Assembly (NCBI GenBank): GCA_013215465.1
Contig: JABSOW010000012.1
Span: 1-64,000 of the forward strand
DNA: 64,000 nt
Reading direction: 5' to 3'
From: Colwellia sp.
GTDB taxonomy: Bacteria > Pseudomonadota > Gammaproteobacteria > Enterobacterales > Alteromonadaceae
The translations under genes and the position numbers were made by a program. Each line of letters starts with the position of its first letter. Positions within the stretch are counted from its first letter, which is position 1. A model generated the notes under the pieces. It saw only the letters and a program-made list of their open reading frames with translations, was not told where the DNA came from and did not search any database. Below, piece after piece: positions 16,941 through 42,700 of the stretch.

Positions 16941-16953
16941 TCAATATAAAATA

Positions 16954-20701: not shown

Positions 20702-20713
20702 TTTAGTATCTTT

Positions 20714-20992: not shown

Positions 20993-21016
20993 AAACTTTC
21001 CTATTCATGCTAAACT

Positions 21017-21571: not shown

Positions 21572-22688
21572 TAGTCCCTTCTATTGCACGTCGTATTAAT
21601 TTTGCTTGAATTTTGGGGGTATACCTTTTCTCAATTTCTTCAATACAATTCATACGGATATTTCCAATGGGTTCATTGATAAATTCTAAGGTAACTTGGT
21701 ATAAAGATTCAAAGGAATCTCGTTCAAACAAACGGCCTGTTTTCTTATCTATAATCGCTTCAAATTCAGGCATTTGATGATTCACATCACTATGGGTAAT
21801 GACAGGAACACCATATCCTAAACAATGCATTGCAGTAAGCCCTACTTCTCCAGGAGAAATACACACATCACTACTACTAATAAGAGAAGCCAATATGGTT
21901 TCGTCATGACACGCTCCATAAAAATTTACGAGAGGCTCTATCTCTTTATGTTTAGTCAATTCAACCAATTTATTTTTAGCTTCACCATCTCCGACAAATA
22001 ACAAATTAACGGGTATACCGTTTTTCTGCAAAGTAGCAACTAACTCTAATAACATTTCTAATTTTTTATGATACGTTAATCGCCCAACATAAAGTAATTG
22101 AGGGTACTCGGGGGAATTAAACAACTCTTTTTTTACTTTTTTCTGCTGCTGTTCAGTAATTGCATCTCTTAATTGTTTTTGATGGTCATAATCTAAAGAA
22201 TTATAAATCACATGAAGCTTCTCAGCGGGTAAGCCTTTTTTCAATAAATTACTTCTGGCATGATGACCATAAAGTAACAAACCATTTGCCAGAAAATAAA
22301 AATATAATTTCAACCGTTCTTTTAATGAATCATCTCGAACAAAACCATGTGTCCAAAAATAAACTTTCCCTCCCATAACTCGAACCAACAAGGCAGACAA
22401 CCAAGTCGATATAAAATATGGGCTTGCTAAAAAGATAACGTTTTTAAATTTTCGTTTAAAAATTAATAAAAGTAATTTTTTTTGCCACAAAGTCTCCTTA
22501 CCAAACCAGCAGTTGACTAACTTAACATGTTCACTCGAATGAAAACTTTCCTCTAGGGATATTATTTCAATGTCGTTATTAGCGTTTTCACCAGCAGCGA
22601 GCATAACATCACCTGCCAACAACAACTCATCAAAAACAGCTTTCCTATAATGGGGAATATAGTGATATACAATTAATGTTTTTTTCAT
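21561..22688 (-). CDS. Glycosyltransferase family 4
   Basis: 375 aa; [54 protein letters not shown]. Confidence 0.85.
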
Positions 22689-22775
22689 AGTAAATCACTA
22701 ACCTTCACAATATGATTCATACTAATCATAAATAAACTAACACTCCATCATCCCCTTTTGCGCACAAAACAGCGT

Positions 22776-24005
22776 TTATGCATAATTATGTAATTTCACC
22801 TTTGGTATTTTAATATCTAGGTCTGAATAATATTTATAATTATTCATAATTGCTAAGAAAAAACCAAATAAAATAGAGCTAGATAATTCGCCAAAAATAG
22901 CAGAAGTTATATTCAATAAAAAAACAACTGAGATAAACAATATAAATAGCCTTAACTTCCCCAATGCAGTTAATCTTTTAGATCCAATAATAAACATAGA
23001 AAAAAAACGTAACATAAGCCAGATAGTTATAATATAACCAAACGATATGACCATATATAATAAAGAATTATCTCTTATACTCCCATCTATGCATGCAACA
23101 AAAGCATGACAAAACTCAATATCTGCTAACTTATAATATCCAACACCACTAGGTATGATAAAATAATAAAAATTATCAATAATATATCCGTAATAACTTA
23201 ACCTCACAGATTCAGAATCCGAAACATCTCTGTATTGAATATAATTCCATAAATCAATCCATTTGTTAACACCATGAATCATATGACTTTCACTTGAACT
23301 ATAATAAGAGGATATTAGAGGCAATACTGATAATCCAGCCAAAGCTAAAACACCTCCTATTAAAACACCTTTTATTATATTTTTCGTTGTTGTTCCTCTA
23401 CCTTTTAAAGATAGAAGCCAAATAAAAGCAAGTACAACTAAAACTATATTGGCTCTATATAAAGAATATGCCCCAAACACCGTAAACCCACATAAACAGA
23501 TCACAATAAAATAGTTGTATCTCAAACGTCTCATTATTAATAATGAAACCCACATACCTATCATTGGAAAATATTTCTTAACACTATGTGTTTCTAACAA
23601 AAACGCATAAAAAACGGCATAAAAAACAAATATAAAAAGAGTAAACAACAAGGCAAACATTATTCTTTTTTCGTATTCCTCTTCCTTAGTCGTTTCAGTT
23701 ATATTGAGAAAGAACATCGCTAATAAAATTGCAAAAAAACACCTTATCTCAGAATATATATGTAAAACATTATTCCCAAAAAGTAGTCCGATTAGTGCTA
23801 AGAAAACAATTAACATACCAATAAGTAAATATTTTGTTGCTAATATTTCCTTAAGTCCACTAACTCTAATAGAAATAAAAATAACATATAACCCCAATCC
23901 AATTTCTGGAAAGTAGCTTCCTCCAAAATTAAACAAGTAAAATGCACCAATAGGAGAAAAAATTAAGGCAAGAAAAAATGGAGCTATTAATGTACTAATA
24001 TTCAT
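22776..24005 (-). CDS. Polytopic membrane protein, probable Wzy-type polysaccharide polymerase
   Basis: 409 aa; about 10-12 hydrophobic segments, EPS cluster context; no strong sequence motif. Confidence 0.55.
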   Translation of the reverse strand: MNISTLIAPFFLALIFSPIGAFYLFNFGGSYFPEIGLGLYVIFISIRVSGLKEILATKYLLIGMLIVFLALIGLLFGNNVLHIYSEIRCFFAILLAMFFLNITETTKEEEYEKRIMFALLFTLFIFVFYAVFYAFLLETHSVKKYFPMIGMWVSLLIMRRLRYNYFIVICLCGFTVFGAYSLYRANIVLVVLAFIWLLSLKGRGTTTKNIIKGVLIGGVLALAGLSVLPLISSYYSSSESHMIHGVNKWIDLWNYIQYRDVSDSESVRLSYYGYIIDNFYYFIIPSGVGYYKLADIEFCHAFVACIDGSIRDNSLLYMVISFGYIITIWLMLRFFSMFIIGSKRLTALGKLRLFILFISVVFLLNITSAIFGELSSSILFGFFLAIMNNYKYYSDLDIKIPKVKLHNYA

Positions 24006-24011
24006 ATATCT

Positions 24012-25157
24012 TCACATTTTCTCTCGATATAGACACGCCAGAGTTTGGCTAAATTTTAAAACCGAACTGTCACCTAAAAAACGTCGATTATCTTTTTGAC
24101 AATAGCAGCGGCTATTAATTATTGCATTCAAAACCTTTACACTATCAGAAGCTTCAGCCACTGAACCTAAATTATATTTATTAATAGTTTCAGAAAGCAC
24201 ATTTTGATTAGTCGCAACAATAGGTACTCCAATCACGCCAGCTATAGTTAGCGGCCCACTTTGACCTGAAAAATTTGGTCGATATAATAACAAAAGGACA
24301 TCAGCAGCAGAGAAAATATCATTGACTTCATCATCGTCGATAAACCTATTCATGATATGTAGTCTATTTTCATTATCAGTAGCTATATTTTCCAATGTTT
24401 CATAACTAATATCTCCCTCTTTACCTGCAATTAACAAATGATAATTATTGGGTAAATTCTTTAATAATTTAACCGCTATATCAGCTCCTTTATCATACCG
24501 AGTTCCACCGAAACACAATAATAATTGATCATCATGAGCCAATTTCAATTTGCTTCTAATATCATTACGTCCAACTTCTGAAAATTTATAATCTTCAGAT
24601 ACAGGATAATTAATAGCGGTTACTGAGCCTTTTTCCAGTTTATTAATTTCATCAGCGATAAAATCTGAATGTACAATTAATTTTACATCATGTTTAAGTA
24701 GTTTTTTTAGTAAAAACCTTTCGAATCGAGCCGCAATTTTTTGTTTTATACTTTGGCAGAATGACGGCAGCATATATGCCCAATGCAAGGTTGCCAATAT
24801 AGGTATTTCAAATTGTCGACCACTGAAAAATAAAGCACGAATAAGACGATCAACATATAAAAAGTGGATCAAATCACTATTATTATTTTTTGCCAGAATA
24901 AAAACCTGTTTACAAAAAGTAATTCTATTAAATTCGCGACGAACAAGCTTACAGTTAGTATCAAGAACCAACGGTGTAACTGACTGTACTTTATCTTTTA
25001 TTTTTTCACATATTTGAGGTGCACCAACAAAATGGATTTTTATATTATGGGTATCAAACTCACTGATTGCGTTAAGGAGATATTCCATATGATGACCTGT
25101 AGCTATATGCTCAACTAAAGTAACCGTCAATCCGCTTTCACTGTTCATACAATGCAA
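24012..25157 (-). CDS. Glycosyltransferase (GT4-like)
   Basis: 381 aa; QLLLCFGGTRYDKGADIAVKLLKNL, IFSAADVLLLLYRPNFSGQSGPLTIAGVIGVPIVATNQ. Confidence 0.75.
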   Translation of the reverse strand: MHCMNSESGLTVTLVEHIATGHHMEYLLNAISEFDTHNIKIHFVGAPQICEKIKDKVQSVTPLVLDTNCKLVRREFNRITFCKQVFILAKNNNSDLIHFLYVDRLIRALFFSGRQFEIPILATLHWAYMLPSFCQSIKQKIAARFERFLLKKLLKHDVKLIVHSDFIADEINKLEKGSVTAINYPVSEDYKFSEVGRNDIRSKLKLAHDDQLLLCFGGTRYDKGADIAVKLLKNLPNNYHLLIAGKEGDISYETLENIATDNENRLHIMNRFIDDDEVNDIFSAADVLLLLYRPNFSGQSGPLTIAGVIGVPIVATNQNVLSETINKYNLGSVAEASDSVKVLNAIINSRCYCQKDNRRFLGDSSVLKFSQTLACLYREKM

Positions 25158-25176
25158 GTTACCTTATTTATAAATT

Positions 25177-25980
25177 TCATTTTAATCTTCGAATCCTTTG
25201 TAATAAGTGGTGTAAAGTTACCATTATTTTATGTACTAATTTATAGCTTACCGAAGATTTTGCTCTAAAATGTAATTCAATCATCGCAATAGATTTGTTT
25301 ACTTTGATTAATTCATCTTTTTGATTTGGAACAGCCACATTGTACTTAGTAACTAAATTTGTAAGTAGAGATTGGTCATGTCGATGCTCAATAAAATCTG
25401 CATGGTTAACAAGTCCGTCTCTATTAGTATCATCTGAAATTAACGCTCGTTGACAAGATACGTCTAACCAGTCTTGTAAAAGACTTCTGCTTGATTCACT
25501 ATTTGTCCATAATGAAATAGTCGCCTGTACTTGAGGTGTATTCCAAAATTCTTCACTGTCACAATTCATTTCAGCAAAAGCTTCTTTTTTTGTCCACTTT
25601 CTATTCTTTCCATGCTCCGGAACATATACACCTGGCATACAGCCGTGGGTTACAGCATAATTTATCAACCATCGAGGATAGATGAAGTTATTATATCGAT
25701 AACCAAAACCGCAGTCCTGATAAATTAAAATGTCTCCTGCTGGAATTTCTTTCAACCTTTCTAAAATGTAATATGGCTTCCAAGCCCAATAACCTGCACC
25801 ACGAGGTTCTTGTAATAAGTCTTTATTGGTTTGGTAAAAACGTGTTCTTTTTAAATCGTCATCTGTGTATATTTTTAAACTTTTCGGCTTTAAAAATGAT
25901 TGTACAAACCATGTGTTTCTTTTGATGTTCTTCTTAAAATCACCCGCAGCAAAGCTGATAAAATGGATATTATTTGGCAT
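25177..25980 (-). CDS. Putative glycosyltransferase-like protein of the EPS cluster
   Basis: 267 aa; PRGAGYWAWKPYYILERLKEIPAGDILIYQDCG resembles small glycosyltransferase-like proteins. Confidence 0.5.
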   Translation of the reverse strand: MPNNIHFISFAAGDFKKNIKRNTWFVQSFLKPKSLKIYTDDDLKRTRFYQTNKDLLQEPRGAGYWAWKPYYILERLKEIPAGDILIYQDCGFGYRYNNFIYPRWLINYAVTHGCMPGVYVPEHGKNRKWTKKEAFAEMNCDSEEFWNTPQVQATISLWTNSESSRSLLQDWLDVSCQRALISDDTNRDGLVNHADFIEHRHDQSLLTNLVTKYNVAVPNQKDELIKVNKSIAMIELHFRAKSSVSYKLVHKIMVTLHHLLQRIRRLK

Positions 25981-27271
25981 TATGAAAATCTCGTCGCTTT
26001 ACCCCTAGAAATAGAATGATGGAAGAGGTAGATATTCTAGCAACTATCATTGCAACCATTATACCTGCAACACTGGAGTCAAATAAGTTTGAATAGATTA
26101 AAACAACTAAAACTATCGATTCTATTATCAAAGCTTTACCTATAAATGTAAACACGCCGTATCCCATTAACATAACGATACAAGCTTGATTTAATGCAAT
26201 AGTTATAAAATAAATAGACATTAAGCTAAGCTCTAACTTAGAAAAATGAAACTCTCCGTTTGACCATAGTTTAAAGGCAAGTTCACCAAACAGAACAACA
26301 AAAGCCATCAAAACAATACTATAAAGAAGAAAAGATACAAATAATTTATTTCTTGTTTTTTCTACCCATGTATTATTTTTACTTTTGATAGCTTGAGTAA
26401 TAATAGGCCATAGAGGTTGTTGTATCGTGGCAAAAAATGTTCCTGCAAGCATAAAAAAACGAAAAACAAGTTCCAATTTAGCAGTGTCAATTAAACTAAA
26501 ACTTGCCATTGTAACCATCACCACACTCTTGTTAACAATAACAGAGACTTGAATCAATAAATTAGATAATGTTATAAAGGTAAGTACTTTATATAGTCTA
26601 AATGTTGGTTTTCTTTTACCTACATTATAATTAATTAAATTTACGGTTTTATTTCTATTCAAATAAAATGTATTTAACAACTTACTCACCAGTATTGGAA
26701 GATATGTAACGACAATAACGATATGAATGGCAAACTCTGTACTAAATTCAGAAAAAGATAATAGATATATAAATATGATACTTATAAAAGTAGCTAACGA
26801 AGCCCATAAATTGTTGTAGTGCTGCTCACCCATCCCTTGTCTAATAGAGTCAGTAAGGGAGTAATAAATAATGGGTAAGCAAAATAACAACATGGTAAAA
26901 ACATGATTATAGGAAAAAAGATAAATTTTTGGTGAATCAGAAAAGAGATAAAATAAAGCAAATACAATAATAACGAAAGAGATAAGCCCAAGATTTATTT
27001 TTTTAGCTGTACGGATAAAGCGCCCACTGATTGCCGTAATATTATTACGAGCAATAATCCGGGTGACGCCAGGATTTATCCCGCCTGAAATCAGAAATAC
27101 CCAGCCAAAAAGAGCGACTAATGTGGAATAAAGACCAAAACCTTCCGCACCTAAAAACGATAATAATAGGGGGAGCGAAATAATTTGATACACCAAGCTA
27201 ATGACTTTGGAAACCATAGAACTTGCAATTGCTTTTTTTAAAATTAGCGTTTTTTCGTTGGAAGACGGCAT
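25970..27271 (-). CDS. Polysaccharide flippase (Wzx/MATE-like)
   Basis: 433 aa; 12+ TM segments, N terminus SSMVSKVISLVYQIISLPLLLSFLGAEGFGLYSTLVALFGWVFLISGGINPGVTR. Confidence 0.85.
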   Translation of the reverse strand: MPSSNEKTLILKKAIASSMVSKVISLVYQIISLPLLLSFLGAEGFGLYSTLVALFGWVFLISGGINPGVTRIIARNNITAISGRFIRTAKKINLGLISFVIIVFALFYLFSDSPKIYLFSYNHVFTMLLFCLPIIYYSLTDSIRQGMGEQHYNNLWASLATFISIIFIYLLSFSEFSTEFAIHIVIVVTYLPILVSKLLNTFYLNRNKTVNLINYNVGKRKPTFRLYKVLTFITLSNLLIQVSVIVNKSVVMVTMASFSLIDTAKLELVFRFFMLAGTFFATIQQPLWPIITQAIKSKNNTWVEKTRNKLFVSFLLYSIVLMAFVVLFGELAFKLWSNGEFHFSKLELSLMSIYFITIALNQACIVMLMGYGVFTFIGKALIIESIVLVVLIYSNLFDSSVAGIMVAMIVARISTSSIILFLGVKRRDFHNAK

Positions 27272-27424: not shown

Positions 27425-28126
27425 GTGCTATCTTTTCATTATCGTAGGAAACTATTTGTGGCTGGTCATTTTGACATTCAAATAAAAAAATGGATATTGA
27501 CTAGTTTATGCTATCTCGCTATTTTCGTCATCTACGCTGCCGATCCCATCAACATATTTCCCCCTGGCCTATTAGATCGTGTAGAACAAGAATACGATGA
27601 AGATGCCCGTGAGCGTGTCCAAGAGTGGCAATCTTTAGTGAACAGCCAACAAGACAGTTCAGAAAAAAACAAACTTAATCGTGTTAACCGATTCTTCAAT
27701 AAAGTGCGTTTTGTTGACGACATCAGGGTTTGGCGCCAGGAAGATTATTGGGCAACGCCTGTTGAATTTTTAGGACGAAACGCTGGCGATTGTGAAGATT
27801 TTACTATTGCCAAATATTTCACCCTTCGTGCATTAGGTGTGCCTGCTGAAAAATTAAGATTAATGTATGTACGGGCTTTACGTTTAAAGCAATCTCATAT
27901 GGTATTGGCTTATTTTGAACAGCCAGATTCAATGCCATTAATACTCGATAATATTAATAAAAAAATCCTTCCCGCCAGCTATAGGAAAGATTTACAACCC
28001 ATTTATAGTTTTAACGGTGATGGTTTATGGGCGGCAAAAGCACAAGGGCGAGGCAGAAAAATTAAAAATAAAGGTGGCCATAGCTTATGGGAAAGTTTAA
28101 TGAACCGAATTGAGCGAGGCCAATAA
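27425..28126 (+). CDS. LapG-like periplasmic transglutaminase-like cysteine protease, canonical-looking copy (LapG1)
   Basis: 233 aa from GTG; VNRFFNKVRFVDDIRVWRQEDYWATPVEFLGRNAGDCEDFTIAKYFTLRALGVP...QSHMVLAYF...LILDNINKKILPASYRKDLQPIYSFNGDGLWAAK; Cys-His-Asp triad present. Confidence 0.92.
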   Translation: MLSFHYRRKLFVAGHFDIQIKKWILTSLCYLAIFVIYAADPINIFPPGLLDRVEQEYDEDARERVQEWQSLVNSQQDSSEKNKLNRVNRFFNKVRFVDDIRVWRQEDYWATPVEFLGRNAGDCEDFTIAKYFTLRALGVPAEKLRLMYVRALRLKQSHMVLAYFEQPDSMPLILDNINKKILPASYRKDLQPIYSFNGDGLWAAKAQGRGRKIKNKGGHSLWESLMNRIERGQ

Positions 28127-28206
28127 TGATTATTTACTTGAACTAACCCTTTACTTGAATTAACACTTTGAAAGATGAATAAAACAATATACAGAGAACA
28201 CAAATT

Positions 28207-30195
28207 ATGAGTTTATCTAAACAGCTATATTTAGGATTGTTGCTGGTACTGACATTAGTTTTTGTCGGTACTTTATGGATCAATGTTAATAACACCCGTA
28301 ATTATATAGATACCCAGCTTGCTTCGCATGCGCAAGATACCGCCACCTCTTTAGGTTTGTCTATTAAACCTTTTATTGGCAATCCCGATGATTTGCCTAT
28401 GGTCGACGGCATGATAAATACTATTTTTGACCGCGGTTATTATCAACAAGTTATTCTTAAAGATAATAAGGGTAAAATCATTTTAGAAAAAAACAATCCT
28501 ATCGTGTTTGATGATGTGCCTGACTGGTTTGTTAACATTTTTTCCTTAACACCTCCGCAAGCGTCAACCGAAGTACACGACGGCTGGATGAAACCCAAAA
28601 CACTTAGCATTATCAGCCACCCTGGTTTTGGTTATAGGCAACTGTGGCAAAGTGCAATAAAAAGCACTTGGATGATATTGGGTTTATTTTTGTTTGCCGG
28701 CACTTTAGTTACCATAATATTAAGAACCATTACTGAGCCGATCAAAAAAGCGGCCGAACAAGCAAATGATATTTGTCAGGGTAATTTCGTTCAAATTGAC
28801 GATATACCTAAACCTATCGAGCTAAGTTTATTTGTCAATGCGATGAATAGAATGTCGAGAATTCTGCAAAATATGTTTAATGAATTAACTCAGCAAACTG
28901 AAAAATATCAACGTTTCGCTTTTGTCGATGAATTAACAGGCTTAGCAAATCGTCGAGCTTTTAATAATCAATTTAAATCATTACTAGCCAATAAAGAACA
29001 TAATAATGCTGGGTTCTTAATGATTGTTCGCTTATCAAGTTTGGATACTATCAATAAAACAAATGGTTACGTTGCCGGTGATGAATACGTAAAAAAGGCA
29101 GTTGAATTGATTAATAAAACCCTAGTTAAAATTAATGGCGATATTAACAATGAACTTACAGCCAAGCACAAAACTTATCGATTAGCGGGATCCGACTTCG
29201 CCATTATAATGCAAGACTGTACCCAAAATGAGTGTCAGCAAGCGACCATTGAACTGATGTATTTATTTAATCAGACATCCGTACCAGCGTATAGTCAGTC
29301 TGCTATAGAGGCTACTGAACAAGAGCAATTAAACAATTTTGCTCATATAGGTATAACCAGTTACTCAACCAACAGTGAAATGCCTAAAGTATTGGCACAA
29401 GCAGATAACGCTTTAGTGAAAGCGTTGACAGATAAAAACAACTGGCAGTTTTCAGATGAACTTGCCCTGCCCCAAGGCAATACTGTTTGGAAGCAACAAT
29501 TAGAACAACTACTTGAAAATGAAAAGGTGATCTTGGTTGCGCAAGCAATTACCGATAAAAATAATAAAGTATTAACTCATGAAATTTATGCTCGTTTTAA
29601 TCATACCGAGCACAATACCCCAATTCCAATGGCTCAATTAATGTTAGTTGCTGAACGTCTTAACTTAGCCGAAAGTTTTGATAAATTAGTGATCAAAAAA
29701 GCGTTAACCCAAGTTAACAAAACACACAGTGATATTGCTATAAATTTAAGCTCTGCATCTTTGGGGCATATCAGTTTTTGTCATTGGCTAATCGCTGAAT
29801 TAGCTTTGTACACAGACATTTGTAAACTGTTAACTTTTGAAATAAGTGAACAAAGCCTTATTCAATATGCTGAAAACGTTTGTCTGATAACTAAAGAACT
29901 CAAAGCCCTAAACTGTAAAATAACCCTAGAACATTTTGGCGCAAGCACCTCCTCTTTTACTCATTTAATGCAAATAAAGCCCGACCATGTGAAAATTGAT
30001 GGCAGTTATAGTCAACAAATAGAACAATCAACGGAGAATCAATTATTTGTTCAGTCTTTAGTGAATATTGCCCACAGTTTACAAATAACAGTCATTGCTG
30101 AATTAATTGAAACAGACAGCCAACAGCAACAACTTGAATCGCTTTTTGTTGATTACTTCCAAGGCTACAATATAGATAAACCAAGCATTTGGTGA
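28207..30195 (+). CDS. LapD-like c-di-GMP receptor (LapD/MoxY-type periplasmic domain, HAMP, degenerate GGDEF and EAL) (LapD1)
   Basis: 662 aa; periplasmic DGWMKPKTLSIISHPGFGYRQLWQS; degenerate GGDEF (LAGSDFAI) and EAL (HEIYARF). Confidence 0.9.
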   Translation: MSLSKQLYLGLLLVLTLVFVGTLWINVNNTRNYIDTQLASHAQDTATSLGLSIKPFIGNPDDLPMVDGMINTIFDRGYYQQVILKDNKGKIILEKNNPIVFDDVPDWFVNIFSLTPPQASTEVHDGWMKPKTLSIISHPGFGYRQLWQSAIKSTWMILGLFLFAGTLVTIILRTITEPIKKAAEQANDICQGNFVQIDDIPKPIELSLFVNAMNRMSRILQNMFNELTQQTEKYQRFAFVDELTGLANRRAFNNQFKSLLANKEHNNAGFLMIVRLSSLDTINKTNGYVAGDEYVKKAVELINKTLVKINGDINNELTAKHKTYRLAGSDFAIIMQDCTQNECQQATIELMYLFNQTSVPAYSQSAIEATEQEQLNNFAHIGITSYSTNSEMPKVLAQADNALVKALTDKNNWQFSDELALPQGNTVWKQQLEQLLENEKVILVAQAITDKNNKVLTHEIYARFNHTEHNTPIPMAQLMLVAERLNLAESFDKLVIKKALTQVNKTHSDIAINLSSASLGHISFCHWLIAELALYTDICKLLTFEISEQSLIQYAENVCLITKELKALNCKITLEHFGASTSSFTHLMQIKPDHVKIDGSYSQQIEQSTENQLFVQSLVNIAHSLQITVIAELIETDSQQQQLESLFVDYFQGYNIDKPSIW

Positions 30196-30306
30196 TCTAA
30201 AAGATGAATTATACCAAACAACAAATGAATTGTTGATTTTTTACACAGCTGCGTTTAAAATCATTTTTATGTGTTCTAATGATTAGAACTATCACTGGAG
30301 AAAATT

Positions 30307-30771
30307 ATGAGAAAAGTAGTATTGGGCGTAGCCCTAAGTCTTAGTATGGCCAGTATGACAACATTAGCGGAAGAAGCTAGTCAGGCCGGTGGTAATGTAA
30401 CGGATGCAAACTGTACTGACTTTAGCCTAGTGCTTAACAACCAAGTAGCGAACATAACAACCACGGTTACACAATTACTTGGCTTCAGCAGTTGTTCAAC
30501 AATTGCCGATCAAGTTATTGAAACAGCCATTTCAGTGACTCAAGCAGCAGATCATCAAGCTATTTTACAAGCCGCTTCTGATACTGGTGTTATAACACCT
30601 ACTGATGCGCTAATCGCTGCCATTGCTGGCGGTGGTGATGTAGCAACATTAACTGAGCCTACTGCCGCTGGTGGTTCTACAATTGTAGCAGCCTCTGCAG
30701 CAACCTCGCCCCCAGTAATTGGTGGTCGCAACGGCGGAACAGGTATTGGTGAAGTAGCTTCTGCGAATTAA
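30307..30771 (+). CDS. Small secreted Ala/Gly/Thr-rich protein of unknown function
   Basis: 154 aa; signal peptide MRKVVLGVALSLSMASMTTLAEE; RBS-like GGAGAAAATT before ATG; contains EPTAAGGST. Confidence 0.75.
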   Translation: MRKVVLGVALSLSMASMTTLAEEASQAGGNVTDANCTDFSLVLNNQVANITTTVTQLLGFSSCSTIADQVIETAISVTQAADHQAILQAASDTGVITPTDALIAAIAGGGDVATLTEPTAAGGSTIVAASAATSPPVIGGRNGGTGIGEVASAN

Positions 30772-30799
30772 ACTGTTAACATAGTAATTAATATTTTGT

Positions 30800-30823
30800 A
30801 AAGGTTCCTAGCGAACCTTTTTT
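30800..30823 (+). terminator. Rho-independent terminator
   Basis: AAAGGTTC-CTAGC-GAACCTTT followed by TTT. Confidence 0.75.
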
Positions 30824-30949
30824 GATGTCTATACCTTTATAATTATTTTGTATTATTACTAGGATAATGTTGAGTTATGTTTGGTACAGCTTAACTAGCT
30901 CTGCTTTTTAATCGTATTTTCGACAAAACAACAATAATAAATTCAATTT

Positions 30950-32341
30950 ATGAAAAATATCAATAAAGCACAATTTTATTGCTTTCTTATGCTGATTTTT
31001 TGGCTGCCTATTCCGTTAGGCTCAAACCGACCTTGGGCTTGGTCAATCATTGAAATTGTCGCCTTTTCATTGTTAGCGTTTCACTTATTGCTTGCGGCTA
31101 AAAACAATGAAAACATCTGGCCACGTTTTAGCGCTTACAAACCTTTAATAATTACATTTTCAATTGTTCAAATTTGGCTTTTGATGCAAATAATTCCTTT
31201 ACCAAATTCACTTTTATATTCGTTAAGCCCTAATTTAGCTGACATTTATAGTTATTATCCGAGTACATTTAACACCTTATCTTTAGATCCAAGTGAAACC
31301 AAAGTATCATTATTTAAAGGCTTATCTTATTTAGCTTTAATGCTACTTTCAATTTTACTGGTTACCTCTGAAAAAAGGCTTAAACAGCTGTTATTGGTGA
31401 TAATATTATCCGGCACCTTTCAGGCCGTTTATGGCAGTTTACAGGCAATGTCTGGCGACAGTTTGTCTTGGGTGATAGGAGTAAAAAACAGTACCATCGC
31501 TACTGGTGGTTTTATTTACAAAAATCATTTTGCCAACTTTTTATTACTGTGCATTTCTATCGGTATAGGCTTCTTAGTTGCCAGTTTATCTAGTAATACC
31601 TCAGGCTCTACTAGGGTAAAATTACGCAATATGATCGGTGCACTCATTCAAGGTAAAGCCGTGATCAGAATTGCGCTGGCATTAATGGTTATTGGCTTAG
31701 TTATGTCTCGTTCCAGAATGGGTAATGCTGCCTTTTTCACGGCAATGAGCTTTACTGGCATTTTCGCATTTTTCTATTTTAAACATCGCAGTAAAGGCTT
31801 AACCATTTTATTGATCAGCCTGTTTATTATTGATACTTTCATCCTTGGCGCTTGGTTTGGCCTAGATAAAATAAAAAACCGCATCCAACAAACAAATTTT
31901 AACCAAGAAACACGCGATGAAGTAAATGTATACGGTGTAGAGTTAATCAAAAAATTTCCGCTCACCGGCACCGGTGCCGGAAGTTTCTATACTGTTTTTC
32001 CTATGGTAAAAGGCAATGACATACCGATATTTTATGATCATGCTCATAATGATTATTTACAGTTTGCCATTGAATTTGGTTTACCGGCCACCCTATTCCT
32101 AGGCCTGATAGTTTTATGGAGCCTTTGGCAAACAATTTATACGATGCGACATCGGCGAAATAACCTGATGAAAGGCACCGCATTTGGCTGCATGATGGCC
32201 ATTATTGGCATGCTGATCCATATTACTGTTGATTTTAATTTACAGGCACCTGCCAATGCGGTGTATTTTATACTTATAATCACCCTCGCATGGCAATCAA
32301 GATATTTATTACGGTATAAGAAAACTATTAAAGGACTCTAA
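30950..32341 (+). CDS. O-antigen ligase/polymerase family (Wzy_C-like) membrane protein
   Basis: 463 aa; polytopic; NVYGVELIKKFPLTGTGAGSFYTVFP...FYDHAHNDYLQFAIEFGLPATL (periplasmic loop with HNDYLQ). Confidence 0.88.
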   Translation: MKNINKAQFYCFLMLIFWLPIPLGSNRPWAWSIIEIVAFSLLAFHLLLAAKNNENIWPRFSAYKPLIITFSIVQIWLLMQIIPLPNSLLYSLSPNLADIYSYYPSTFNTLSLDPSETKVSLFKGLSYLALMLLSILLVTSEKRLKQLLLVIILSGTFQAVYGSLQAMSGDSLSWVIGVKNSTIATGGFIYKNHFANFLLLCISIGIGFLVASLSSNTSGSTRVKLRNMIGALIQGKAVIRIALALMVIGLVMSRSRMGNAAFFTAMSFTGIFAFFYFKHRSKGLTILLISLFIIDTFILGAWFGLDKIKNRIQQTNFNQETRDEVNVYGVELIKKFPLTGTGAGSFYTVFPMVKGNDIPIFYDHAHNDYLQFAIEFGLPATLFLGLIVLWSLWQTIYTMRHRRNNLMKGTAFGCMMAIIGMLIHITVDFNLQAPANAVYFILIITLAWQSRYLLRYKKTIKGL

Positions 32342-32345
32342 TTTC

Positions 32346-33407
32346 ATGAAAAAAAAATACCTGAACAAGATGTTTGCAATTTCTATATGTTCAATGTTCA
32401 GCATTGGTTCCGTCACTGCCACAGAGCAGCCTAACGCTGAAGATTTAGTTGGCAAGATTTTTGGCGGCTTACACGCCCTGCATATTAAAACTGATGACGA
32501 CCGACTCATCACCTCTGATCCGTTATCAGCTATGGATTACGGTAATGGTTTTGGTGGAGAAATTGGTTATCGCTGGCTGCCGTCCACTGAATTTAGATTT
32601 ACCCATAGTCAATTTAAGCTAACTAGTGAAAACGACGGCTATCCAGAGCCTGATGGTACATCCAATGCGCTTGATATTTTGTATTTCCCTACCGAGAAAA
32701 ATTTCTACTTATTAACCGGCGTTAATAATTTAGATATTGGCAGCTCACAAATATCAGCTAACTTAGGTGCTGGTTATCGTTATTACCTTAGCGAACGTTC
32801 TGCTATTTACATTGAAGGTAAAGCAAATTACCAATTTTCTGAGCGTTATGATGAATTTACCTCACAAATTGGTTTTGTCTATTTCTTCGGTGATAACGCT
32901 GATTATAAAAATAATAAGCCAAGTAAAATAGCGGCTATTGATAGCGATAAAGACGGTGTTTTTGATAATAAAGATCAATGCCCTAGGACGCCAATGGTTG
33001 ATAAAGTTAATACTATAGGCTGCACAATCTTTGCAGATCGTTTTATCACTCAACAATTATTAGTTAAGTTTGATCACAACAAAGTAATTATTAAACCTCA
33101 ATATAATATTGAAATTGCAAACATAGCTGATTTTCTTAATGAAAATAAATCACTGTCAATGACAATTGAAGGGCATACTTCAAGTTTAGGAGCTGATTTA
33201 TACAATAAAACCTTATCTCAACAACGTGCTCAGGCTATTGTTGACATTTTGATCAAGGAACATAATATTGATAGCGCTCGTTTATCTGCTGTTGGCTATG
33301 GCGAAGAACAATTAAAAAACAGCGCAAATACTAACGCTGCTCACGCTGAAAACCGTAGAATTGAAGCCAAATTAGAAATAACTCACAAAGTAGCAGTTAA
33401 ACGCTAA
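32346..33407 (+). CDS. OmpA-family outer-membrane protein with thrombospondin type-3-like calcium motif
   Basis: 353 aa; N-terminal beta-barrel, DSDKDGVFDNKDQCPRTP, C-terminal TIEGHTSSLGADLYNKTLSQQRAQAIVDIL...RLSAVGYGEEQL...NRRIEAKLE. Confidence 0.9.
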   Translation: MKKKYLNKMFAISICSMFSIGSVTATEQPNAEDLVGKIFGGLHALHIKTDDDRLITSDPLSAMDYGNGFGGEIGYRWLPSTEFRFTHSQFKLTSENDGYPEPDGTSNALDILYFPTEKNFYLLTGVNNLDIGSSQISANLGAGYRYYLSERSAIYIEGKANYQFSERYDEFTSQIGFVYFFGDNADYKNNKPSKIAAIDSDKDGVFDNKDQCPRTPMVDKVNTIGCTIFADRFITQQLLVKFDHNKVIIKPQYNIEIANIADFLNENKSLSMTIEGHTSSLGADLYNKTLSQQRAQAIVDILIKEHNIDSARLSAVGYGEEQLKNSANTNAAHAENRRIEAKLEITHKVAVKR

Positions 33408-33416
33408 GGATTAATA

Positions 33417-33471
33417 TATACCCAGCCACTTCAAAATGCGAGTTTCAGGATTTTGAAGTAACTTGGCTATA
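33417..33471. repeat. Small intergenic imperfect palindromic element
   Basis: TATACCCAGCCACTTCAAAAT ... ATTTTGAAGTAACTTGGCTATA; related in sequence to 4045-4091. Confidence 0.5.
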
Positions 33472-33480
33472 CGCTAAACA

Positions 33481-33519
33481 AAAAAAGCTAAGTGTATTTT
33501 TAAACACCTAGCTTTTTAT
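33481..33519. terminator. Bidirectional terminator between convergent genes
   Basis: AAAAAGCTAAGTGT...ACACCTAGCTTTTT stem with A/T tracts. Confidence 0.75.
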
Positions 33520-33560
33520 TTATTAACTAGCTCAACAAACGAATAGCCATGTTAAACATG

Positions 33561-35870
33561 CTATGCAGTTGCCAAACCTTCACTACATGTTATTGATAGC
33601 TCTTTAGGTTTATACTCACTTGCTGCATAAATACCTAGCTCTTTTAATATCTGCATATCCGCGTCAGTTATTACCTCTTCTGCGTATAGTTTTATATTGA
33701 GCAATACGGTTAGTTCTTGTAATGCTTGTACTAATCGTTGTTTCGGTGCTTCGACAGCAATATTTAGGGTTTGCTCTTTCGTTAATCTGACCGCATCTAC
33801 TTTAATGCCTTGCAAGGCTTTGAGCGATAATATAGTAGGATCATAACGCTTGATAATCACCGAGCTACCTAGCTGATGTATGGTATCAATAAATTGCTTA
33901 AAAGCTGGTTGTTGTCTAACGACGGCATAAGCGGTGATGCTAAAAACAAGTTGTGGGGCAATATGTTTGTTATCTACTAGCTTCTTTGCCAACCAATGCA
34001 TGAAATCAGCATTACTTATTGAGTCGATTGATAGGTTAACTAACAGCTGATGGTTAAAATGTTGTTGTTCAATATCGATAATTATTTTATTAATCACCTG
34101 TTGATCAAAACCAACATGTAACTGAAATTTTTCAATAATAGAAATAAATGTTGCCATAGCAACGTTGTTACCATGCTGGTCTTGTACTCGGGTAAATGCC
34201 TCTACCATGACCATGTGATCACTATTATCTGCCACTGTTAACAATTTACTTGGTTTGACATAATCAATGATAAAATTACCGGTAGTAACACATTGCTCGG
34301 CTAATTGACGCCATTGCTGCAGATCAAGTGCTTGGGCTGATTTTTGATTAATAACGGCTTCATTGGGGCCGATTTGTTTGGCCGACTCTAAGGCTTCATT
34401 GGCGGCATGTAGTACCGTGGTAATATCGCTATCTGGTTGAAAAGCGCCGACGCCTATATGAGCCATATCGGTAAGATTGAATTTTGGGGTCAATAGATTC
34501 AACTTATGGGTCAATGCTGTTGCTACAATGACCGCATCCTTATTGCTAGCATTAGTAAGTAATAAAGAAAATTCTCCACCAAAAAAGCGATAAGGGCTTA
34601 TCTGGTATGACTTTTCTCTTTTTTCTTTACTACATTGAACCAAGATTTTAGCAACATCTTTAATAATGTTATCCACCTCATTATGTTCATGTGTGGTCGC
34701 GATGTGATTTAAGTTATTTATTTTAATGATGAAAACATAACCTTGCTGAGCTAGTGCTAAAGACTGGTTAAAATCTATATCAAAAGTAGGCTTTAATGCT
34801 AATTGGGTTAGGGGATCAATATTAATTTCTTCATGCATCCGCATAACTTCTTTGTTTAGGGTATCTATATAACGATTTAATTTTCCAGACATATCATTTA
34901 TTGCCAAAGTAACCATTTTAAATTCCTTAGTTTTTGGAATAACAGTTACCTGTTCGAATATACCTTTGCCTATTTTTTCAACGGAATTTTGAATATCAAT
35001 TAACGGCTGCAGTATCTTATGTAAGAAAATATTGAGTATTAACATGGCGATAATTAATGCCACCAAAGAATACCAAAAAGCTTGGTTTACATATTGAAAA
35101 AGCCGATTATAAACATCCGCAGGATTAGAGCTAATAGATAAATAGGCGATTTTTTTCCAACCATTGCTAAGTTCAACTTTAGCAATATCAATAGTGATAG
35201 GTAATAAATCTACAAACCATTGTGGGGTTTGTTCAAATTTATTTTCTCGGCTATCCTTAAATAGCAGTCGCTTTATCGGAATGAACGCTGTGCCTTTAAC
35301 GAGGGGTGCATCATTTCGGTTTGTCGCATTTATTTCAACTGGGCTAGCTTGAAAATCTATCTGTATGACGGTGTCATCAATAAAGTTCTCATGCGGTAAA
35401 AAACGCAGCCATTCAATGGTGTTACTATGTTGATTATTTTCTTTATTATGTTGAAGGGCTGCTAAGCGTGAACGTAGCTCAGTTTGAGCTACGTTAGTGG
35501 TTAATTGCCCATGTTTTTTGTCAACATAAATACTTTTTAGCGCCCATTGCCCCTGAGCAAAGACTTTATTGCTTGCTAAGTTAAGTAATTGTTGTGCGCT
35601 ATATGTTACCGCAATGCTATCCAAACGAATTTCTTTAAAAAAACCTCGATTAGCGACAATATTAATCAAAGAAGATATTTTCGGATCGGTAATATCTTTC
35701 ATTAATGGGCTTAGTGATAACGCCAATGAAGTAGAAGTATCATGTGCACGACTATAGGATTCGCTTTGTAAAAACTGTTTACTTTCATTGACACTAATTA
35801 AAAAAATTCCGCTAAAAACGATAGTGAAAATAATTAACAAAAATATTCGTAATTGTGTATTTAATGACAT
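33561..35870 (-). CDS. LapD-like c-di-GMP receptor, divergent copy with enlarged periplasmic domain (LapD2)
   Basis: 769 aa; TM-periplasmic-TM-HAMP, degenerate GGDEF (FFGGEFSLLL) and EAL (MVMVEAFTRV); SNGW in periplasmic domain; ~110-aa extra segment relative to LapD1. Confidence 0.85.
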   Translation of the reverse strand: MSLNTQLRIFLLIIFTIVFSGIFLISVNESKQFLQSESYSRAHDTSTSLALSLSPLMKDITDPKISSLINIVANRGFFKEIRLDSIAVTYSAQQLLNLASNKVFAQGQWALKSIYVDKKHGQLTTNVAQTELRSRLAALQHNKENNQHSNTIEWLRFLPHENFIDDTVIQIDFQASPVEINATNRNDAPLVKGTAFIPIKRLLFKDSRENKFEQTPQWFVDLLPITIDIAKVELSNGWKKIAYLSISSNPADVYNRLFQYVNQAFWYSLVALIIAMLILNIFLHKILQPLIDIQNSVEKIGKGIFEQVTVIPKTKEFKMVTLAINDMSGKLNRYIDTLNKEVMRMHEEINIDPLTQLALKPTFDIDFNQSLALAQQGYVFIIKINNLNHIATTHEHNEVDNIIKDVAKILVQCSKEKREKSYQISPYRFFGGEFSLLLTNASNKDAVIVATALTHKLNLLTPKFNLTDMAHIGVGAFQPDSDITTVLHAANEALESAKQIGPNEAVINQKSAQALDLQQWRQLAEQCVTTGNFIIDYVKPSKLLTVADNSDHMVMVEAFTRVQDQHGNNVAMATFISIIEKFQLHVGFDQQVINKIIIDIEQQHFNHQLLVNLSIDSISNADFMHWLAKKLVDNKHIAPQLVFSITAYAVVRQQPAFKQFIDTIHQLGSSVIIKRYDPTILSLKALQGIKVDAVRLTKEQTLNIAVEAPKQRLVQALQELTVLLNIKLYAEEVITDADMQILKELGIYAASEYKPKELSITCSEGLATA

Positions 35871-35889
35871 TGATACTCCATGGATTATG

Positions 35890-36663
35890 CTATTTATTTA
35901 ATAATTTTTGCCAATTAGCTAAATTGTATTGTTCAGTTTTAGATTGCTTGCCACGATGTTTTGATTTTAATAAACTGCTGGCGTTAAAGCTGAAAATAGG
36001 CGTGATATCAGGGCGCTGTGAAGCGAATTTAAGTCGCAGGTTGACATTATCTAGCAAGATAGGCTCTGCATCTGGTGTAGTGAAGTAACTTAACAGCATA
36101 TGATTACTAGAATATTTTTTATTACGCGTTTTTAATTTAACATAACTTAGTTGTAATTTTTTATCTGCTACGCCAAGTAGCTTTAAACTAAAATACTTGG
36201 CGGTAGCAAAATCTTCACAGTCACCGGCGCCACTGCCGATAAATTCAAAGGCGGTCGCCCAATAATCACCTTTTCCCCAATGTTTTTTGTCACTAAGGTA
36301 TTTTATTCGATTAAAATAATCATTGACCGCTTTGAGCTGCTCTAATTCTGATAAGCCAGTTGCCTTGATCATCATTTTATTCCATAAACTAAGGCGTTTT
36401 CCGGCTCTGGCATTATATGTTTTAATTATATTTTTTAACTGTATTTGAGTGATAAAGCTTGCAGTATTAGCTTGAAGAATACTGTTAGGCATCAAAATTA
36501 AGCACATTAGTATTATGACGGAAATTATCGACCTCTTATATTTAAAATAGTAACACCGCAAATAGTGACTAATATTTGAGTTATAAAAACACCAGATAAA
36601 GAGCCTACCTCCTATTTGGACGTTGCAAGCTAAAATTAATAATATACATAAGTATTTCCTCAA
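35890..36663 (-). CDS. LapG-like periplasmic cysteine protease, divergent copy (LapG2)
   Basis: 257-aa ORF (true start possibly internal); VNDYFNRIKYLSDKKHWGKGDYWATAFEFIGSGAGDCEDFATAKYFSLKLLGV...NHMLLSYF...ILLDNVNLRL. Confidence 0.88.
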   Translation of the reverse strand: MRKYLCILLILACNVQIGGRLFIWCFYNSNISHYLRCYYFKYKRSIISVIILMCLILMPNSILQANTASFITQIQLKNIIKTYNARAGKRLSLWNKMMIKATGLSELEQLKAVNDYFNRIKYLSDKKHWGKGDYWATAFEFIGSGAGDCEDFATAKYFSLKLLGVADKKLQLSYVKLKTRNKKYSSNHMLLSYFTTPDAEPILLDNVNLRLKFASQRPDITPIFSFNASSLLKSKHRGKQSKTEQYNLANWQKLLNK

Positions 36664-36763: not shown

Positions 36764-39700
36764 TTAAATTATAGTATCTACAATCTCTTGTTCTACATGA
36801 ACGGTAACAGTAGGATCAGTGGCAGTGGCACTAGTATTTGTATAAACATCATAAACATGCCCATCATCAGTAACCGTATTCATATCTTTATTCCAACCAC
36901 TACTGTCGGTGTTGGTAAAAGAGACTTTATCATTAGTGTCCCCTTCTATTATTAATAGGTTATTAGTATCGGTCATCTCTAGCACATCTTGCCATGATAG
37001 CGCGACTAAATCATGGTCGCCATTTTGTTGTAAGTCAATTAATTCAATATTCTTAATACCGTCAGCATTAGTCAGGCTACTAAAATCAATACCCACATCA
37101 TTTGATAAAATTAAAGTATCTGTACCTGCTAAGGCATCAACATTATTTCCTTGTTTATAAAACAAGGTATCATCGCCACTTGTCGCATCCACCTTACTGA
37201 TTTCAACAGCAAAAGAGTCATCAACAATGACTGAGCTATCATTATTACTAGGATTAGCGGTGTCAAGGTCAACAGTATGGGCTTTAACATCAATTATTCC
37301 GCTAAAACTTTGCTGAACAAAGCTTAAATTATTGATATCTGCGGCGGCGATATTACTAATAGTATAAGTATCTGAGCCGTCGTAATTAATGTTGTTATCA
37401 TCAATATCTTGACCATTGGCTTTAAAGTTAGCATCAACACCAAGACCTGTAAGGGTTATGGTTACCGTTTCTGAGCCATCAAGATCAATGACATTGGCAT
37501 TAAGATTGAGGGCGATATCATCTCCTTCATCTCCAAAAGTCTTAGTGGCATTAAGTGTTAAACCATCCGCAACAGCATTAATAACAAGGTCAAATGTAGC
37601 AGTATTTGCAGATAAATCAGAAAGATGTTCTTCTGAGCTATAGGTAGTAAAATTAATACCAGTGAGTGTGCCTGACCAATGTTCAGGCGCCTGAATATAG
37701 ACCTTTGCCGGTAGGGTGCCATTATTTAATGGAATAGCCCATTGGTTGAATCCAGCGGTACTTATCCCTGCATTCTGTGCCAACAAAGTCTTGTTGACAT
37801 CAGCTGGATCTTGATAATAAACAAGGAAACCAACGGGAACATTATCTAATAATGCCGTCACTACGGTCTCAGAAGGGTCACTAGGAGATATACTAAGATC
37901 AAGTGCAACCCTATTAACGCCACTGGCGATAACCACATCCTCAGTGCCAGCAACATCATTAGCACTAATGTTGCTACCATCAATAACGGGAGTTATATTA
38001 AATGAGAACTGTTGAGTTGACAGGTTGATTGCCGTATCCGTAATACCATTAATATTAGGATAAGGTGCCCAACCATGTGCTTCTTGATTATGTGCATACA
38101 CCTCAACATCGACACTGCCTTGGCGATCTGTCGCTGGTGTATAAATGAAGTCTAAAATATCAGTGTAACTCACACTAGAAACAACATAATAATTACCAGC
38201 AGGTAACCCTGCGGGGTTATTTTCAGTAGCCAAGCTATCACCGCCACCATCAGTTAACGTTCCGGCTAGAACACCAGGGTCAGAGTCAGAGTAAGTTTCA
38301 GTTATTTTTATATAAACTTTATCACCAATAATTGTAGTATTGGTTCCATCGGCATCGTTGCTTAAGGTAATCGAGAATGCTTTGCCAATATCTTCTGGTG
38401 TACTACCATCTGGTGTTACCGCAATGGTTAAATCATCCGTTACTGGATAGACTGGTTTATCAAAAGACAATTGACTGGTATTTTGGGTATAAGCCGCATA
38501 GGTTGTCATCGTGGCATTAAAAACAAAAGTATCTGCATCAATATGGTTAAAGCTATTAAAGTTCGCTGGTGGCGTGATTGTTACCGCTTGCATTGCCGCT
38601 AATACTGCATTGGAATCGCCATTTCCATAAACAATCCAAGTATCTCCCTGCTGCAGTGCCCCGGTTACAGTACTGCCAGCTAACACACCGGTTAACACGA
38701 TAGAAAAAGCACTTGCGCCGGTTGTTGTTGCACTAATAGCCTCATCTAGGGTAAATGCAGTATCTTCAATGATATTGATCGCTTTTACTGAGAAGCTATT
38801 AATGGTGGCAGGTATACCCGTTACGTTGCTACCGCTGTAACTACCATCTTTTTCAATAGTAAATGAAGTAAAGTCATCTTGTAGCACATTGTTATTATTG
38901 TCTTCATTATAAGCAGTAATTTTAATAACGCTGGTATTAAAATTACCTGTCCCACCATCTACATTAAAAGTAATCGTTTTACTAACACCATCACTATCTA
39001 ACGCTTCATTGATATTTAAATACCAGATGCCTGAATCTTCATATTGACTGGTACTGGTATTATAAATATCTCCAGCATAAATACCACCCACCACAGTGAT
39101 ACCCGAGGAGACATTTTCAATAACCAAACGAGTAACTTGCTCTGAGCCATCAGTATCTGCGCCGTTGCCAGTACCGTTGCCTTCATCTGTATCATCAATA
39201 CCCGTAACCTTGACCTCAACAGTAATGGTGGTGTTATCTGTTACGGTAACAGTAGAGCCTGAAATAGCACCGTGAGTACCGCCATTTATAGTGCCTAAGT
39301 TGACATTAATATCATCAGTGATGGCATTTACTATCAGCTTATAAGACAAAGTACCGGAAAGTGTATTTTCTGATGTTCCCGCTGTAATGTTAACACTGTC
39401 CTTAATGTCATATTTCACTTCAAAATTATTATCGCTATGTAAGTCGGCAGAACCGAGTGCATAAACATTATTAAAGGTATGATTTGTTAATATATAATAA
39501 GTACCGTCATCACTGATCGCATTCGAAGTAACTGCTGCATCAAGTGTCACTGCGGGGCTATTACCAAGGTATAAGGTAAAATCACCTGCGGCCACCTCCG
39601 CTTTGTTAATATAAACGGCCTCAAGCGTTTCGTTAGTATCACCGTTTTGATAAACAATACTAAAATCAAGTAAACTTAACTGATCTTCATTTATTGTGGT

Positions 39701-42700
39701 GCCAGTATTTAAGGTCGCTTCGGCGTCAGGTGTTACCAGTATTTTAATATACTCTGCTGGGTGGGTGGCGCTATCACCTTCATTTTCTGTAGTGATATAT
39801 TTTACCTTTAAATCAATTTCACCACTAAAGTTTATTGGTGTATTCACTTTAATATTAGCAATATCACTCGCGTTGAATAACCATTGTCTATCTTCACCTG
39901 ATCCCCCCATAAAAGTTGCATTTTCAATGCTAAACTGGCTAGCTAAACCTGTGATAGCTATGGTTAGTGTTTCTGAGCCGTCATCATCATAGGAGTTTAA
40001 TGTGCTTGGCGTTTGGTATACTTTTTGAAAATAAAATTGATTCGGATTAAGGCTAGGGTCAGTAGCGTTATCAAGATAGGCTTCGGTGGTAACATAATTA
40101 AAAACACCAGTCGCATTGTTGCTATTGCCGTTAGCATTAAAGCCATTAAGTTCGGTATTTTTAGGCATATCAGCAACACCTATAACATCAACATCAATGG
40201 TCAGTGTTTGTGGTGATGCTGCCGTATTTTCAGTGCTGTCAACGGAATACGCAGAAACAGTAAAGGTATAATCACTATCATCGTTATGTGGTGGAATAAA
40301 GGTTAATGGTGCTGCATTATCAAAATTTTCAATTTGTAATGTCCAAATTTCATCTGAATTATCTACATCAGTTGCTATTAAAAAACCTGATACACCATCA
40401 TTCGTATTTGTCTGACTACCACTACCAATATTTATTAGAGTGCCATTGTAGTAAATTTCGCCGCCATCCGGAATACCGCTAATAGTTACGACGAAAGTTT
40501 CACTGCCATCTTTATCATCAGTGGTTGTAGTGATATCTAAAGCGATACCATTAGCAGCGACAGCCGTTATACCGTCAGCATTACGCCCGGCATCTTCATA
40601 ACCTGACGCTTGCTTGATGGCTAAGGTCACAAGATCTGCGACGGGGGTAACCACGAAGGTTAATGTGTCATAGTCAGAGATTGCCGAAGATGTTGTATTA
40701 TCATTACTATCCTCGTCAGTATCGATTGTTTTTACTGCCATGTGTATTTCAATGGAGCCACTAAACTGAGCGGGTGGCATAAATTCTACGGAACCCAAAG
40801 CCGCGAGAGGAATATCAACACCGTCTGCAACGTTAGCGACAACGAGTACGGTAGTGCCACCATCGATGGTAAACTGCGAACCCACTGGCACATTAGAGAA
40901 ATTGATAAGTGTTGTTTCTGAATTTGACGCACCAACTATGCCTGAGTTTTCATCATCTTCATTACTAGCAGATAAAGAAAATCCACCATCGGTATGGAGG
41001 ATAATCCAGTTGCTATCATCTTCCTTAATATTAGTATAAGTATAAGTATAATCGCCTTGGCTATTTACATCTTTACCATTTACACCCGCACTATCACCAT
41101 TAGTATCACTACTATCAGTTTCTGCAACCGGCGTCACTTTAATAATGAATGGATTACCATTAGTAGTAGTAAATTCTGTATCCAACTCAGAAAGTACGTA
41201 ACCCGTGTGTGAATCAATTGCTGTTACGGTTATATCCAGAGGAATATCAAGACTACTATGTGGTCGATGGCTGTCTAGTTCAATTTTTTGGGCATCTTCA
41301 AGAGTGAATACATTGTTGCCTGTATCCGTAGAATTACCAATGGTGATAGTGTACGACTCCCCCTCACTACCTGAAGTGTATAAAGAAATGGGGGAAACTC
41401 CTCCTGTAGTTAATTCAAAGCCAGTAGCTAGGTTACCAATTACGATTTTAGTAATGTGATCATTACCACCATCACTGTTATCATCGGTAATGCTTAAGTT
41501 TTGTAAGAAAGCAACGGGGGTATCTTCAGCAACTTCCACACTACCCAGTGCAACATCATTTGCAATGGGATTAACGGATAAGTTTAACGTTACAGAGTCG
41601 GTTTTAAGAATTGGGGTTGCGCTTGGAGAGTCTGAATCACTATCCAAAGCTGTTAAGGTAATGGTTATGCCAGTCATATCACCACTAAAATCTTTTGGTG
41701 GTGTTAAAATAATGCTTGGCCCATCTCCCGTGAACACCACTGAAACAATACCACTTGCAGGTGCTGTCGCTTCCACATCCTCAACGGTTAATTTTGTTCC
41801 TTCGGGTACCCCTGTTAACTTATAAGTAAAGGTCTCTGAGCCATCAAGTTTATCGCCAAAAGTTTCTGATAAGCCAGAACTTAAATCCCAACTGCTGTCT
41901 TCATTCATTGTGTACGTTAACGGTCCGTCCGTTAAGGTAATATCATCAGTCACCGCTTGCACATCGATAGTTACGGGAGTCGTGGTAGGCGCGCCGGCGA
42001 CACCATCAATCACAGAGCCATCGTCTTTTACTTCATAGCTGCTCACGTTGACCGTAAAACTGATATTTTCGTGAGTATCTAATGGCGGTTTAATTTGCAT
42101 ACTTTCATATTCGGTAACCGTCATGCTTAATTGACCAGTGGTGCCAGTTACATGGTTTTGGTGTAAACCTCCAGTATCTTTTTCTAACACTATGGTGATA
42201 GCTGAGCCATTAGCATTATGGACAACAGTACTACCATCGGCCTTAACTAACGTTGCCCCACTTGGAATACCATTCAAAGTAATAACACCATATAACTCTG
42301 GGTTATCTGCATCAACACCCATACCACTAGCATCAGTTATATCTGTTTGTGTTGGTGCGTTTAAACCAAGCGCAACAGCGGTATCTTCTTCTGTTTGTAA
42401 GCTTGGATTGTCAACAAGGTTTTTAGGGGTATCGGCAATGGGTGTTACGGTAATGGTTACTGTGGTTGATGAAGTATCGCCATTATCAAGTGTGGTGGTA
42501 TAAGTAAGCTCGTCTTCACCACTAAAATTACTAGTAGGCGTATATGTTAGCGTACCATCAAGATTAATTATCGCTGAGCCATAAGAAGTAATAGTGGTAA
42601 AAGTACCATCACCATTAGGTGTAGAGGTACCATTAATAGTAGTATTAGCTGCTGTCGCATCAGCATGGGTAGTAATAGTATTAACATTATAATTTAAGTC

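Follow-up and report, generated by a model that had tools for sequence, protein, structure and literature searches.

Two LapG/LapD pairs in one Colwellia locus and a candidate small LapG substrate encoded beside an exopolysaccharide gene cluster

Why does a single locus of Colwellia sp. encode two LapG/LapD pairs, and on what would each of them act? In the stretch of 64,000 nucleotides analysed here (the window), a sequence-only reading had placed two such pairs in opposite orientations, and positions, frames and domain matches all confirmed this: lapG1, lapD1, lapD2 and lapG2 are open frames with PF06035 or LapD_MoxY_N-GGDEF-EAL matches. A profile search of the whole genome found lapG1 and lapG2 as its only PF06035 genes, and a third LapD_MoxY_N match (30.9 bits) lies on a different contig. 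Our main reading, to which we give a probability of about two in three, is that pair 1 is an EPS switch whose protease cuts a small exported protein, and that pair 2 is the adhesin's, with sensing by the LapD2 EAL domain probably lost. This reading is based on gene order, clades, site conservation, tail-ligase co-occurrence and residue losses, from which we infer the cleavage, the c-di-GMP control, the glycan attachment and the export route of the small protein.

Pair 1 runs rightward from the EPS cluster in the order lapG1, lapD1, a 154-aa ORF, a Wzy_C gene and an OmpA gene. The features concerned are the following.

8026-27271, minus strand: divergent Wzx/Wzz/Wza-type EPS cluster (domain annotation).
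27425-28126, plus strand: lapG1, BTLCP/LapG protease of the EPS-linked clade (PF06035, 2e-14).
28207-30195, plus strand: lapD1, LapD receptor in which the conserved EAL residues are kept (LapD_MoxY_N, 4.2e-39; GGDEF; EAL).
28582-28587, plus strand: GW anchor of LapD1, equivalent to W125, which binds LapG (residue map; role, PMC4359373).
30307-30771, plus strand: candidate LapG1 substrate, a small exported protein of 154 aa (signal peptide and helical body, then LapG site and Gly-rich tail).
30598-30627, plus strand: helix 98-107, directly before the site, in the position of the targeting helix (AlphaFold2 model, local pLDDT about 84-73).
30661-30672, plus strand: TAAG with the predicted scissile bond Ala120-Ala121 (sequence; motif definition, PMC13090378).
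30673-30768, plus strand: 32-residue tail, GSTIVAASAATSPPVIGGRNGGTGIGEVASAN (tail/ligase co-occurrence).
30950-32341, plus strand: Wzy_C family ligase/polymerase, partner of the small protein (PF04932, 3.2e-20).
32346-33407, plus strand: OmpA-family protein, on the same strand as pair 1 (PF00691, 5.5e-20).

The EPS cluster encodes Wzz/kinase, Wza, CpsB/CapC, sugar transferase, flippase and glycosyltransferases, a sugar transferase at 13129-14577 lying inside it on the plus strand. A 251-aa protein encoded at 16954-17709, also inside the cluster, has a PEP-CTERM motif (5e-5). The OmpA-family gene was found in loci L054 and L158 too. The Wzy_C protein is assigned to the O-antigen/EPS ligase family by its PF04932 domain and by its relation to a solved ligase, the sole PDB match of its profile being 7tpg, annotated as a cell-surface polysaccharide polymerase/ligase (7.7e-5). 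Since some EPS loci carry another Wzy_C gene, a ligase role is possible for the partner of the small protein; alternatively, it could be a polymerase.

The sequence-only reading had proposed an EPS-associated partner for pair 1, and ORF 30307-30771 now provides a specific candidate. LapG substrates combine a targeting helix, a DP turn and a [T/A/P]AAG motif cut between the alanines (PMC13090378; PMC3032545). In the small protein, the signal peptide and helical body are followed by 'AAIAGGGDVATLTEPTAAGGS', and these substrate features were recognized as GGGDVATLTEPTAAG after helix 98-107; the DP of the LapG site is seen in the relatives L158 and L169. No Pfam family matched the protein, and NF033682 (retention_LapA) matched it at profile positions 68-115 only. 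The AlphaFold2 model is of low confidence (pLDDT 62), with site and tail disordered, and Foldseek returned no fold match for it at E<=0.001; the best PDB profile matches were designed helical proteins. No description of such small proteins was found in the open-access literature on LapG with O-antigen ligase, TAAG cleavage site and Wzy/polysaccharide.

The survey of LapG neighbourhoods drew on 61 genomes from the genus and order, where the same-genus sampling includes repeated close relatives, and on a scan in which each GTDB species was represented by one genome. Where lapG-lapD occurred with a Wzy_C gene, a small exported protein with signal peptide, LapG site and Gly-rich tail was encoded between lapD and the ligase in 20 of 20 distinct loci (Colwellia, Thalassotalea, Glaciecola, Alteromonas, Rheinheimera, Psychrosphaera, Pseudoalteromonas and others). 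The site of the family is of LapA type, AGxDPTxxxEATAAG, and leads into a Gly-rich tail ending S-x-N; typical examples are GGGDPVTLSEPTAAG (L158), AGVDPTIVAQATAAG (L091) and SGVDATIASEATAAG (L052), and in related genomes the LapG sites of giant adhesins are GGADPTQILEATAAG and QGADPTQVLEATAAG. A strict form of the site, D[PATVS]x2-8[TAP]AAG, was present in 13 of 23 small proteins, against a mean of 1.1 in shuffled sequences (maximum 6 in 2000) and 23 of 1119 background ORFs. An Ala/Gly-rich composition favours chance matches, for which the shuffles and background ORFs are the control; both counter the idea that TAAG arose by chance in a protein rich in Ala.

A profile search blind to gene context recovered 30 loci, 29 of which adjoin lapD and/or a ligase; once the query rows were left out, this was true of 24 of the 25 further copies. 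In giant adhesins the small-protein profile matched the site segment only, and retention_LapA was the only NCBIfam family matched by more than two small proteins (5/14). Some members have a variant site (TASG, TAGG, TAAA or TQTAGG), including the close relative L054 with TAGG, so cleavage is uncertain in these.

These comparisons bear on the idea that LapG1 is instead a regulator of a capsule/EPS machinery protein, the TAAG of the small protein being incidental. The precedent is HvyA, a BTLCP of the Caulobacter capsule locus that prevents capsulation (PMC4241560). Against it, distant small proteins conserve the site along with the DP turn and the helix that comes before it, and we consider such a role for LapG1 very improbable.

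What lies beyond the site is informative as well. In most small proteins, a tail of about 28-50 residues, rich in Gly, Pro, Ser and Asn and ending S-x-N, follows the site; tails are variable, and some have few Ser/Thr. Five tail-less small proteins stop 3-6 residues past the site (RKK, YKKK, KSSE, KAKK and IAKTIQ). A search was designed as a test on these two classes, the ligase being expected with a tail and absent without one. It was found in 14 of 14 tailed genomes (E below 1e-145) and in none of the five tail-less genomes. The ligase gene was non-adjacent in six of the 14, about 25 kb off in two that were measured. It was also missing from four Colwellia genomes with a T1SS-type LapG only, and one genome (G044) has the ligase with no small-protein neighbour detected. 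Fisher's test of tail against ligase gave P = 8.6e-5 on the assumption of independent genomes, which these are not fully; as the tail-less proteins come from two families only, 14/14 versus 0/5 does not represent 19 independent events. Because the tail was found only with the partner Wzy_C ligase, it is probably the working target of this enzyme, that is, a ligase partner such as a polysaccharide acceptor.

The same data weigh on another explanation, in which the small protein acts as decoy or inhibitor: its LapG site would titrate LapG1 and so tune LapG activity, and its cut product would have no role. A small, co-encoded protein with a canonical site would suit this, and the tail-less versions, ending 3-6 residues past TAAG, would leave little product. 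However, that the tail tracks the ligase and ends in a conserved S-x-N suggests that the product matters, and Vibrionaceae-like genomes keep the small gene together with the ligase and apart from lapG. A decoy therefore appears unlikely. In these Vibrionaceae-like genomes, the small gene and ligase stand in EPS clusters without lapD. LapG was present in 21 of the 21 genomes with a small protein in the family sample f21, against 130 of 151 overall (hypergeometric 0.034), so that LapG would act there in trans. Small protein and ligase are usually followed in such clusters by a low-molecular-weight tyrosine-phosphatase-like gene (L194, L195, L196, L197, L203), and one genome (G235) has two small-protein/ligase pairs on different contigs (L194, L242).

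The two proteases themselves were then compared. LapG1 and LapG2 share the Peptidase_C93 fold, the Cys-His-Asp residues and the D-C-E calcium motif, with GDCED, HM and LDN segments in each. LapG1 matched the solved LapG 4u65 at 9.3e-52 and NF045674 at 6.9e-71, under the equivalog cut-off; with 237.9 bits for LapG1 and 166.9 for LapG2, both stay below the 320 bits set for the NCBIfam LapG equivalog. Judged in this way, they are LapG homologues and not the curated equivalog. The motifs quoted earlier for LapG1, LapD1 and LapD2 are present. The loss of consensus ascribed to LapG2 was borne out only for the protein as a whole, whose terminal branch is 1.73 against a median of 0.27 in the LapG tree; its active-site consensus is intact (DYWATAFEFIG..GDCEDFATAKYFSL..SNHMLLSYF..FSFN; 7.6e-39 to 4u65).

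In the LapG tree, which like the LapD tree is a quick tree, the EPS-linked LapGs, LapG1 among them, group together (26 rows, support 90) and are separate from the main group of T1SS-linked LapGs (48 rows, support 98). Pair 1 thus falls in the EPS branch and not, as the description 'canonical' had implied, in the adhesin branch. LapG2 is a long branch with no settled position. Its nearest relatives in the class are about 38-45% identical, and nine of nine checked have LapD1-like neighbours; a single donor for LapG2 and LapD2 is not indicated. A recent duplication of the pairs was ruled out by the 37% identity of LapG1 and LapG2 and their separate tree positions. The LapD positions are separate too, and the pairs are old, distinct lineages. 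Three or four PF06035 genes per genome were seen in G047 and G055 (L069/L070/L071 and L076/L077/L078); several LapGs in one genome are therefore not rare.

Pair 2 runs in the leftward direction, next to an adhesin of 3171 aa and the T1SS that goes with it.

33561-35870, minus strand: lapD2, LapD with lost EAL pocket residues (domain matches, residue map, tree).
35274-35609, minus strand: insert of about 112 aa in the LapD2 periplasmic domain, limits approximate (alignment A7).
35890-36663, minus strand: lapG2, divergent LapG with retained active-site segments, start codon uncertain (PF06035).
36764-46279, minus strand: T1SS adhesin of 3171 aa (weak retention module).
46362-51479, minus strand: T1SS HlyD, HlyB and TolC-like ORF of the adhesin cluster (TIGR01843 and TIGR03375 for HlyD/HlyB).

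Both receptors have the LapD layout of a periplasmic LapD_MoxY_N domain, a GW loop and GGDEF-EAL, the GW anchor being the part of LapD that binds LapG (PMC4359373). The degenerate GGDEF/EAL motifs reported for both are there, to unequal extents. LapD1, which falls in a 100* clade with Thalassotalea and Colwellia relatives, keeps the c-di-GMP-pocket residues of a degenerate EAL domain (ERNEEEGKDEEQG versus KRNEEQGKDEEQG in P. fluorescens LapD). In LapD2 the pocket reads ERNSAKDRTEISE, with seven otherwise conserved residues lost (E, E, G, K, D, Q, G), which makes c-di-GMP sensing doubtful: binding by its EAL domain is unlikely, and this sensing has probably been lost. The insert of LapD2 is missing from eight other LapDs in alignment A7.

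The LapD2 pattern is common to six methylotroph LapDs (clade 100*): those of Methylophaga and Methylococcaceae group with LapD2 at support 100 and share the loss of E, E, K, D, Q and G. The LapD2-type clade (33561-35870 with L102, L103, L107, L113, L115 and L144) has a conserved alternative EAL set (E/E to S/A, K to R, Q to S or G), and its methylotroph members are paired with lapG, with no adjacent adhesin.

The adhesin matched NF033682 (retention_LapA) at profile positions 3-89 with 21.9 bits, under the 50-bit cut-off. A motif scan found no canonical [T/A/P]AAG site in its first 350 residues, and only RTAGE at 124 and GAAG at 361 in its first 400. Retention module and canonical LapG site are thus split between two proteins, adhesin (profile 3-89) and small ORF (profile 68-115). 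The TolC-like ORF (50037-51479) matched TolC genes at other T1SS loci. No relative of adhesin residues 1-160 was found among 198 other family genomes, so a foreign origin is probable for the pair 2 cluster.

One form of what the sequence-only reading had proposed is a set of two insulated adhesin switches that differ in c-di-GMP threshold, the giant adhesin belonging to pair 2 and a remote adhesin to pair 1. Two old lineages, the adhesin beside pair 2 and five other genomes in which an EPS/small-protein LapG and a T1SS-linked LapG occur together (G010, G014, G023, G041, G047) speak for it. The genome search for other LapA-like adhesins, by the retention_LapA profile, found no second credible retention module, however, and the sole significant genome match to the small-protein/LapG-site profile was 30307-30768. 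The EAL losses of LapD2 also go against it: if LapD2 may not bind c-di-GMP through this domain, different thresholds lose their basis. Nor does biochemical insulation follow, as the catalytic segments in both LapGs and the GW anchor in both LapDs leave cross-talk possible. Different substrates do fit the different partners, a small protein and an adjacent T1SS adhesin. We regard two adhesin switches as quite improbable.

Returning to pair 1 as an EPS switch, the following scheme can be proposed. At high c-di-GMP, LapG1 would be held by LapD1 and the small protein would stay uncut. At low c-di-GMP, LapG1 would be freed and would cut TA|AG between Ala120 and Ala121, so that helical body and 32-residue tail come apart. 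If the ligase joins polysaccharide to the tail, the cut would then release or re-localise this polysaccharide. Such c-di-GMP-gated release, with a dedicated ligase loading EPS on the tail and the LapG cut shedding it, is a tentative proposal which we hold as possible but rather doubtful. Pair 2 would serve, or would once have served, the adjacent T1SS adhesin.

Like pair 1, LapD-LapG-LapA of Pseudomonas fluorescens and FrhA/CraA of Vibrio cholerae involve LapG and a LapD with GW anchor and c-di-GMP-type EAL residues, and their adhesins share with the small protein a targeting helix, DP and a [T/A/P]AAG site (PMC3032545, PMC13090378, PMC6890996). Unlike them, the candidate substrate is a 154-aa Sec protein with neither retention module nor RTX part, and its EPS locus has a Wzy_C ligase and not a T1SS. 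P. aeruginosa LapG acts on CdrA, which is outside the LapA family and has its proposed site close to the C-terminus (PMC4694147); unlike the small, ligase-linked candidate here, CdrA is a large two-partner-secreted adhesin. HvyA resembles LapG1 as a BTLCP tied genetically to surface polysaccharide (PMC4241560); no LapD partner is described for it, whereas pair 1 co-encodes a LapD and a candidate substrate. RbmD, an OTase-like protein of the V. cholerae VPS region, is proposed in PMC6901666 to transfer EPS/VPS-derived glycan to protein; the paper also has VPS bound to an unidentified component. RbmD and the partner Wzy_C protein are alike as ligase-like proteins of an EPS region, the OTase activity of RbmD being putative.

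The EPS-locus LapG/LapD clade, found across Alteromonadales, is a little-noticed branch of the biofilm switch. A further question, prompted by LapD2 and its methylotroph relatives, is what signal a LapD lacking the usual c-di-GMP residues would sense. Demonstrated LapG substrates in the literature surveyed are giant adhesins and CdrA. If the small proteins are cut, the EPS-locus LapGs would gain a substrate, c-di-GMP would be tied directly to polysaccharide retention, and work on capsule-locus BTLCP proteases such as HvyA would have a starting point. If the release switch is true, LapD/LapG would govern the sugar matrix as well as protein adhesins, in Alteromonadales and Vibrionaceae-like genomes.
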